From: Mesotoga prima MesG1.Ag.4.2
Lineage (GTDB): Bacteria > Thermotogota > Thermotogae > Petrotogales > Kosmotogaceae
Reading direction: 5' to 3'
Assembly: GCF_000147715.2 (NCBI RefSeq)
Contig: NC_017934.1
Coordinates: forward strand, 1,922,001-1,986,000
Length of the DNA stretch: 64,000 nt
In this document: positions 17,783-20,439 of the stretch, piece after piece
How positions within the stretch are numbered: position 1 is the first letter of the stretch
How the letters are laid out: every line of letters begins with the position of its first letter
Position numbers and translations under genes: made by a program
The notes under the pieces: generated by a model
What the model saw: only the letters and a program-made list of their open reading frames with translations
Databases searched by the model: none
What the model was told of the DNA's origin: nothing

Positions 17783-18553
17783 CTATTCAACAGAGACACC
17801 CGCGTAAAGTGTCGAAACATTTCCATGGTTTTCAACCGTGCTATAGAATTCGAACTCTATTAGAGAGACTCCTATTTTTAGAGCTTTGAAATCGAATAAC
17901 CGCTTTCCGGGTTCGGTGCTTGCTATTGGAAAGTTCGAGATGTCACCGGGAAAGGATTGGCTCTTCGAAGGGTCGATGTACCTGTTATCTATGAGTCTCA
18001 GGATTTCGCTATCGCCCCGCACGCTCCATGAAAATCCAGCCGATAAGTCTTCCTCAGTAGTGGCTGCGAATAGATCACCCGACTTATGAAACCCGGAGAA
18101 CTGTCAAGGACCGTTACATAATCAGGAATACACTCACTTAAAGTTCTGTCATCCATTTCTACATTGAATACCCTTATGTCGACAGCTTTTTCTTCGCCTT
18201 CCCATTCTCTGTAGAGCTTGAAAATAATTGCAAAGCTTCCCAAGGTTTCTGGACTGAATAACCAGGTCACTTTCGAACCGCCACCTTGGACAGCTTTTTC
18301 AGATTGGTCAACGGAGCTTTCCTTCGAAAAAAGTGAAAAGGCGTTAGCTTCTGATGAATAGTAGTGCCATGTATAACCGGTCGAAGCTTTCTCCACAAGT
18401 TGGGCCTTCAAGCGTTGTTCGTAGCTGATTCTGTTTAATTATCGGGATATTTGATTCTTCTGAATCTCCTATGCCGGCAAGAAGAGTTCCATAGAAAGTC
18501 ACAAATACAATCGTCATTATTAAAGAGATTATGTGATAGTCTTTGAAAGCCAT
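17783..18553 (-). pseudogene. Exported tandem chagasin-like (inhibitor I42) protein, broken by two frameshifts
   Basis: From an ATG at 18553 (AGGTGGT upstream) the frame gives an N-terminal membrane/signal segment (IISLIMTIVFVTFYG). After a shift near 18411-18430 a second frame carries STGYTWHYY, a GGGS turn and LYREWEGEEKA. These match the three loops of chagasin, an inhibitor of papain-type peptidases (NPTTGYxW, GGxG, RPWE). After another shift near 18095-18105 a third frame has SAGFSWSV, GKRLFDFKA and FEFYSTVENHG, a degenerate second copy of the same domain, to the stop at 17783. If intact it would be an exported two-domain inhibitor of about 250 residues. Two independent shifts argue for a dead gene, but resequencing would be needed to exclude errors. 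Confidence 0.6.
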
Positions 18554-18864
18554 AAGTACCACCTATTCTGCTTCTGTTAGAAAACCTAACAATGTAGGTA
18601 TTTGACGATCTCCAGAGAGAAAGGATCAAACGGGAAGAAAGGATCCAAAGAAGAAGTCCTGTTTTCAGCTAAACTCTTCTCTTGTATTTCATAGAGGAGG
18701 AATGTCAAAACGACCGAATTCAATCGCGTCTAATCGTGAAAGACAAGCTCCAATGATGTCTTTCGACTTTTCATCTTTTATCTAATAGTGTAGATTTTTA
18801 TGACTCAACAAATCAATCATTTGTGTTAATATTTCTTCATGCTATGAAAAAGGGGGGAAAGTAA
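18554..18864. promoter_or_regulatory. Intergenic region upstream of the heliorhodopsin gene with an inverted repeat
   Basis: AT-rich region without a convincing gene. ACAAAT-N5-ATTTGT (18808-18824) is a perfect 6-5-6 inverted repeat about 40 bases before the heliorhodopsin start, and TTGTGT (18821) with TATGAA (16 bases on) is a weak promoter match. The gene's ribosome site is AAGGGGGG. A possible regulator site; nothing identifies the regulator. Confidence 0.4.
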
Positions 18865-19629
18865 ATGGAATCCGTTTACAAAAAGCTTCGTATATACAAC
18901 TTGATAATGGGTTTTCTCCACCTTGTTCAGGGAATCATAATGCTGATAGTAAGCAACGATTCTTCTTTGACGATTACGAGAAACTACCTGGAGTTTGACC
19001 GGGAGATAATGCGACTGGTTCCAGCAACCGAGAACTTCATGGATCTGAAGATGGGTCCTTTCATCGCGAGTTTCCTCTTCATGTCCGCCATAGCGCATTT
19101 CATAGTCTCAACCTTTGGCTTTGGGTGGTACGCAAGAAATCTTCAGAAAGGAATTAATTACGCCAGATGGTACGAGTATTCCATCAGCTCTTCGGTGATG
19201 ATTGTTGCCATCGCTATGTTCTCGGGTATGCTTGACATAGTTAGCCTCATGCTGCTCTTCACTGTCAATGCCCTAATGAACCTCTTCGGGCTTATGATGG
19301 AACTTCACAATCAGACAACCGAAAGGACAAACTGGACGGCCTTTATCTTCGGCTGTATTGCCGGGGCGGTCACATGGATAGCTGTCTTCGTATACTTTTT
19401 TACATCTCTTGGAAAGGCTAATGTTGAATTCCCGTCTTTTGTTTATGCAATTCTCATTACTTTCCTAGTTTTCTTCAACAGCTTTGCGATAAACATGTTT
19501 CTTCAGTACAAGAAGATCGGTCCCTGGAAGAACTACCTCTTCGGCGAAAGTATGTATGTTCTTCTCAGCCTTGTTGCCAAGAGTGTCCTTGCGTGGCAGG
19601 TTTTTGCCGGAACGCTCAGGCCAGTTTGA
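18865..19629 (+). CDS. Heliorhodopsin (retinal-binding seven-helix membrane protein)
   Basis: 254 residues with seven hydrophobic helices, the size of the founding member 48C12 (about 253). Signature residues fall where the family has them: His19 in helix A, His78, Glu104 in ARWYEYSISSSV (the Schiff-base counterion region), Asn135 and the MELHN turn, and Lys239 in SLVAKSVLAWQVFAG, the retinal-binding lysine, with Ser235 one turn before it. Heliorhodopsins are light-sensing, non-pumping proteins with inverted topology (N-terminus inside); their output is poorly known. The gene stands alone with its own terminator. No carotenoid cleavage oxygenase, carotenoid gene or photolyase is in the window, so the retinal source is unknown. 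GGGGGG precedes the ATG by 8 bases. Confidence 0.95.
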   Translation: MESVYKKLRIYNLIMGFLHLVQGIIMLIVSNDSSLTITRNYLEFDREIMRLVPATENFMDLKMGPFIASFLFMSAIAHFIVSTFGFGWYARNLQKGINYARWYEYSISSSVMIVAIAMFSGMLDIVSLMLLFTVNALMNLFGLMMELHNQTTERTNWTAFIFGCIAGAVTWIAVFVYFFTSLGKANVEFPSFVYAILITFLVFFNSFAINMFLQYKKIGPWKNYLFGESMYVLLSLVAKSVLAWQVFAGTLRPV

Positions 19630-19652
19630 TAAAAGTTTTTAAGGAGTATCGT

Positions 19653-19678
19653 GAGACCCCGAAAGGGGTCTCTTTGTT
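19653..19678 (+). terminator. Intrinsic terminator of the heliorhodopsin gene
   Basis: Perfect 8-base stem GAGACCCC/GGGGTCTC with a GAAA tetraloop, then TTTGTT. It isolates the heliorhodopsin transcript from the methyltransferase gene. Confidence 0.85.
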
Positions 19679-19701: not shown

Positions 19702-20439
19702 ATGCCAAATCTCTACTTCTATGCCGGTTCGGCAAATCCGGAGCTGTACGAGCTTCAGAATGAATTGATCGACCCAGAAAGGAAAATAGAGAAGGTTATG
19801 GAAGAGTTCTGCGATTTCGAAGGCAGCGTGATTGTCGATGTTGGAGCAGGCTCAGGCTTTCATTCACATATGTACGCAAGCACTGCCTCCATGGTTTACG
19901 CCGTGGAGCCGGATTCGGGAATGTTAAAACAATTGAAAGCGAGGCAAGCCCGTGACTTCAGATCGAACTTCTGTGTGTTGAAGGGATTTGCTGAGGACCT
20001 TCCACTGAAATCTGATCTGGCAGATATCGTGCACGCCAGGCTTGCGTATTTCTTTGGCCCGCCCATGAAATACACAGAGAGTTGTGAAGAGGGGATTGAG
20101 GAAGTCAAAAGGGTCCTGAAGACCGGCGGGTATTTCTTCAATATTCAGAACAACTACTCTTCAGGCCAGTATGCGGATTTTCTCGAACTATCATATGGTC
20201 GGGACCTTAAAAACCTTCAAAAAGAGATTTCCGATTACTTCGCATCGAGGGGCTTTTTGGAAAGGATCGTGAGAACGAAATGGAGAGCAAAGAACCGTGG
20301 GGAAATCGAAAAGGCCCTTACGCTGGAATTTCCGATCGAGAAGGTGGGGCAAATCATGAAAGCCTTTTCCGGCAACGAGTTCTCACACGACTTTTCAATA
20401 TTCTTCTTCAAGAAAAGAACCAGAGGCGAAAATGGTTAG
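19702..20439 (+). CDS. Class I SAM-dependent methyltransferase
   Basis: 245 residues. SAM-binding motif I is VIVDVGAGSGFH (43-54), followed by VYAVEPDSGML (motif II acid) and a Methyltransf_11-like ADIVHARLAYFFGPP segment. The substrate cannot be told; its closest general class is small-molecule or ubiquinone/menaquinone-type methyltransferases. AGGAGG lies upstream of the ATG. The heliorhodopsin terminator separates it from that gene, so co-function is not implied. Confidence 0.85.
   Translation: MPNLYFYAGSANPELYELQNELIDPERKIEKVMEEFCDFEGSVIVDVGAGSGFHSHMYASTASMVYAVEPDSGMLKQLKARQARDFRSNFCVLKGFAEDLPLKSDLADIVHARLAYFFGPPMKYTESCEEGIEEVKRVLKTGGYFFNIQNNYSSGQYADFLELSYGRDLKNLQKEISDYFASRGFLERIVRTKWRAKNRGEIEKALTLEFPIEKVGQIMKAFSGNEFSHDFSIFFFKKRTRGENG

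Follow-up and report, generated by a model that had tools for sequence, protein, structure and literature searches.

The closest solved structures to the heliorhodopsin (HeR) of Mesotoga prima are those of TaHeR, from the Thermoplasmatales archaeon SG8-52-1 (6is6; E 1e-78), followed by HeR 48C12 (E 4e-58). A characteristic feature of HeRs is a long A-B loop with two antiparallel strands (PMC9385722). Within the genus Mesotoga, Kim et al. (2021) produced the M. infera HeR in E. coli supplied with all-trans-retinal, and reported a pigment at 539 nm (PMC7807009); the occurrence of HeR in this genus and its binding of retinal are thus already known. HeRs rapidly take up retinal from outside and are found in organisms devoid of a pathway for its synthesis, and it has been hypothesised that their hosts scavenge retinal (PMC9296517). 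The HeR of Trichococcus binds a photolyase of class II, with repair increased about threefold and green-light repair added (PMC9769723). The survey by Bulzu et al. (2021) states that HeRs are restricted to monoderms (PMC8612252). Our literature search found no paper naming HeR together with Thermotogota.

Identity of the gene and its transcription unit

The window, i.e., the whole stretch of 64,000 nucleotides analysed here, sits in a 2,974,229-base contig of a two-contig genome (99.8% complete), in agreement with the chromosome of M. prima MesG1.Ag.4.2, published as 2,974,229 bp together with a plasmid (PMC4603820). HeR orthologues occur in five other Mesotoga genomes (four intact, one frameshifted), and the GC content of the gene is 44% against 47% for the window. 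A chimeric contig, which the earlier note had raised as a concern, is ruled out by these observations.

The ORF at 18865-19629 (+) encodes a full-length product of 254 residues, which is matched by the Pfam model PF18761 (342.9 bits, model positions 1-242 of 242) and by the NCBIfam HeR model NF038020 (363 bits, for a cut-off of 100). The AlphaFold2 model (pLDDT 92.2, pTM 0.87) displays seven long helices (2-29, 63-82, 99-119, 125-152, 158-182, 191-215 and 224-251) and an A-B loop made of two antiparallel strands (34-45 and 50-62), and superposes on 6is6 with a TM score of 0.95 and an rmsd of 1.3. Based on this fold match, the N terminus is predicted to be cytoplasmic (inverted topology). Curated profiles, similarity to solved HeRs and overall fold identify the gene as a genuine heliorhodopsin (type-3 rhodopsin), as first read from the sequence. 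A type-1 microbial rhodopsin was rejected, PF01036 having no match to this protein or anywhere in the genome; a weak PF01036 fragment with two stops, below the cut-off, was seen in a Thermotogota draft genome (L018, G005:C65:3828-4067).

The residues initially listed (His19, His78, Glu104, Asn135, Ser235 and Lys239) are all present. In an alignment of 86 HeRs, the Schiff-base lysine K239, the counterion E104 and S235 show no variation, H19 and H78 are each kept in 84 sequences, and N135 is the most variable of the set (66 N, 18 T). The SxxxK motif (S235-K239) lies inside helix 7, and loss of the retinal lysine is ruled out. H19, H78, E104 and K239 align with H23, H82, E108 and K238 of TaHeR, a numbering that follows PMC9385722 in part.

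A purine-rich sequence, GGGGGG (18852..18857, +), 7 bases before the ATG, forms a strong ribosome-binding site, and a purine-rich site is also present in the Mesotoga orthologues. Downstream, an intrinsic terminator (19653..19672, +) with the structure GAGACCCC-GAAA-GGGGTCTC followed by TTTGTT closes a single-gene transcript; its fold has a z-score of -4.0, none of 200 shuffled sequences being equally stable, and a comparable hairpin follows HeR in two other Mesotoga genomes (G029 and G028). The end coordinate first given for the gene, 19678, merely takes in this terminator. The earlier note described a gene standing alone with its own promoter and terminator: the terminator is borne out, but no sigma-70-like site was found upstream, where an AT-rich intergenic stretch of 453 bases precedes the gene.

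Distribution and conservation in Thermotogota

HeR was detected above the cut-off in 9 of the 103 Thermotogota genomes: six are Mesotoga, two represent genus g5 of the same family, and the ninth (G070), of genus g27, belongs to another family. The more distant Mesotoga orthologues are 84-87% identical to the M. prima protein. The absence of HeR from G024 is uncertain, since its contig stops at the methyltransferase gene. A quick tree placed the Mesotoga sequences beside Chloroflexota and CPR sequences, apart from genus g5 and G070, with long branches; a single Thermotogota clade fits even better and is not rejected (AU p 0.65, with the same long branches).

This patchy occurrence, together with genomic surroundings that differ among Mesotoga species, would fit a gene acquired sideways that is now decaying and has little present function. 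Broken copies point in the same direction: in G028, a +1 frameshift immediately precedes helix 7 and hence the lysine, and in G068, sister of G070, only a 31-residue stretch from the HeR start is left, identical to that of G070. Given its scattered occurrence and its recent breakage or loss in these two genomes, the gene is dispensable. However, the G028 frameshift could be an error, this genome being a draft, and the five intact Mesotoga copies all keep full pockets. Moreover, dN/dS between Mesotoga species is 0.05-0.10 (most of the distant pairs yielding no value because of saturation at silent sites), equal to or below that of four neighbouring genes; in the closest pair, HeR has a value of 0.06 (NG86) versus 0.12-0.15 for these neighbours. 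Such values point to strong purifying selection, and decay is a rather unlikely explanation. The comparison of L105 and L106 documents a very recent loss, G070 still having the HeR that its near relative G068 has lost by deletion.

Retinal supply, light and a possible partner

Profile searches detected Blh in none of the 103 Thermotogota, while three strong matches were obtained among 39 Actinomycetales used as a positive control. Five Thermotogota genomes have phytoene synthase, but none of these bears HeR, and RPE65 is also absent from the HeR-bearing genomes. The search for phytoene genes and Blh that the earlier note had proposed thus shows, with working positive controls, that known retinal-making genes are lacking in this anaerobic, toga-bearing host; a sister Mesotoga strain is described as a strict anaerobe (PMC4603820).

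The surprise that the earlier note attached to this situation is not supported. Among 50 genomes with related HeRs, many of which are incomplete metagenome assemblies, none had Blh over the cut-off, 17 had phytoene synthase and five had RPE65, most close relatives of the M. prima protein being found in genomes without retinal-synthesis genes. Many of these hosts belong to anaerobic lineages (Methanomassiliicoccales, Anaerolineae and Dehalococcoidia). HeR without retinal synthesis is common, as the literature already states together with the scavenging hypothesis (PMC9296517), and the M. infera HeR has already been expressed as a pigment at 539 nm (PMC7807009). In two Cryosericum/Caldiserica HeR genomes (L071, L074), an RPE65-type carotenoid oxygenase occurs without phytoene synthase, as if a carotenoid were taken up and then cleaved.

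Of the 10 Thermotogota that carry HeR or a remnant of it, 9 have photolyase (PF00875), versus 22 of the 93 others (Fisher p 6e-5, uncorrected for kinship). Counted by genus, photolyase occurs in 13 of 38, including each of the three with HeR (p 0.034). The co-occurrence is drawn from these three genera only, and within Mesotoga it is not significant (p 0.19). Exceptions occur both ways, with HeR lacking a photolyase match in G025 and photolyase lacking HeR in G031 and G068. The M. prima photolyase, encoded about 1.39 Mb from HeR, best matches phr2 and is of class II type, with a score of 535 bits that lies slightly below the cut-off of 550. Two further genomes differ in their photolyase content: in the Mesotoga genome G027, which lacks HeR, several stops make a pseudogene of the class II-type photolyase (L128 1234-2579), and G070, alone among the Thermotogota examined, has two photolyase genes, which are of class II and of the class I/cryptochrome type (L127 274-1611 and 11030-12427).

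On balance, we consider it fairly probable that the M. prima gene encodes a functional HeR that uses scavenged retinal and acts as a light-dependent regulator of a partner encoded elsewhere, most plausibly photolyase. The apoprotein would take up all-trans-retinal made by aerobic or phototrophic neighbours. By analogy with M. infera, the only Mesotoga protein for which retinal binding is published (PMC7807009), the M. prima HeR is predicted to bind this retinal, and the holoprotein may absorb green light at about 540 nm and run a slow, non-pumping photocycle. It would then bind a cytoplasmic protein whose gene lies at another locus, and a class II-type DNA photolyase, as in Trichococcus, would be the most plausible partner, albeit a weakly supported one and as yet an unproven candidate. 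Photolyase co-occurrence and the binding reported in Trichococcus make light regulation with scavenged retinal the most likely reading. In its fullest form, the proposal is a doubtful one: in strict anaerobes with BamA and a toga, a green-light HeR with scavenged retinal would aid a class II-type photolyase whose gene lies elsewhere in the genome; if true, HeR and photolyase would be kept or lost together, and the Trichococcus mechanism would reach beyond operons and monoderms.

The earlier note left the choice between scavenged retinal and a role independent of light. Scavenging, already hypothesised for HeR hosts, agrees with the missing synthesis genes. An apo-opsin devoid of retinal, with a structural, lipid-scrambling or signalling function unrelated to light, would suit a strict anaerobe in which known retinal-synthesis genes are lacking and the gene is under purifying selection, but such a function would not require the invariance of Lys239, Glu104 and Ser235, or the nearly invariant histidines, among 86 relatives. 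The M. infera protein forms a pigment, and the presence of photolyase suggests that some light reaches the cells. A strictly light-independent role is quite improbable because the retinal pocket is invariant, and because the gene is under purifying selection and co-occurs with an enzyme that is useless without light.

The genes adjoining HeR offer no convincing partner for the proposed light-dependent regulator. Divergent from it lies a chagasin-type protease inhibitor (I42; 17786..18553, -), a pseudogene with frameshifts and an in-frame stop, and beyond the terminator a SAM-dependent methyltransferase recognised by profile match (19702..20439, +). I42 is also divergent from HeR in G025, despite different other neighbours, and the methyltransferase comes after HeR in G000, G029 and G028. 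Yet I42, intact in G029 (L099:7327-8100), has one stop in G028 and is a pseudogene in M. prima, where HeR is intact; as for the methyltransferase, a strong terminator separates it from HeR in M. prima, and it does not adjoin HeR in G023, G026 and G025. A functional partnership with either gene is very improbable. A conserved operon partner was rejected as well: in a comparison of 85 HeR loci, none of the neighbour families shared across lineages exceeds seven loci or keeps a fixed place. Other arrangements were observed. Two codirectional flavodoxin-like/FMN reductase genes lie directly 3' of HeR in G026 (L101 14267-16308), and the sequence following HeR in G023 begins like that of G026 and is degraded. 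A CrtI-like flavin oxidoreductase (PF01593) occurs two to four genes upstream of HeR, in the same direction, in one Anaerolineae (L047 3080-4612) and on two archaeal contigs.

Synthesis of its own retinal by Mesotoga, through an unrecognised oxygen-independent or micro-oxic route that would explain a chromophore site kept while the known enzymes are missing, is hardly credible, as phytoene synthase, the first carotenoid step, is absent from all HeR-bearing Thermotogota and there is therefore no C40 precursor to cleave.

Cell envelope and comparison with known systems

The outer-membrane insertase BamA/Omp85 is encoded in 9 of the 10 Mesotoga genomes, including M. prima, and bamA has been described in Thermotogae (PMC8871954). 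The survey applied a threshold of at least 10 out of 27 markers, below which Thermotogota may have fallen and been counted as monoderms (PMC8612252). Regarded as diderms whose outer layer is unusual, they provide a counterexample to the monoderm restriction. The tension sensed by the earlier note, which considered HeRs rare in diderms, is thus real and sharper than it supposed, the monoderm-only statement of the survey (PMC8612252) being set against BamA in 9 of 10 Mesotoga genomes. The M. prima HeR contradicts a published statement that serves as a basis for ideas on retinal acquisition and sensing by HeRs.

The remaining interest of the locus is this diderm exception and the link with photolyase, whose co-occurrence with HeR provides a concrete partner candidate. 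M. prima, a cultured strict anaerobe that encodes a retinal protein but has no known retinal pathway in its complete genome, also offers a clean case, and the scavenging idea is thus directly testable.

HeR 48C12 (6su3, 6uh3) has the same fold as the M. prima protein (TM 0.90) and the same SxxxK motif, but is a more distant branch with about 43% identity. Like M. prima, Trichococcus flocculiformis encodes a HeR as well as a CPD photolyase of class II type (PMC9769723); there, the two proteins bind each other and their genes form part of one operon, whereas the genes of the putative M. prima pair lie about 1.39 Mb apart. TaHeR (6is6, 7u55) is archaeal and its loop is five residues shorter than that of M. 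prima near positions 181-186, but the two proteins are 52% identical (TM 0.95) and share the counterion, the histidines, the lysine and the A-B loop beta-hairpin. Although it is the protein of another species, the M. infera HeR belongs to the same genus and family as that of M. prima, and its pigment, obtained by expression in E. coli with retinal, absorbs at 539 nm.
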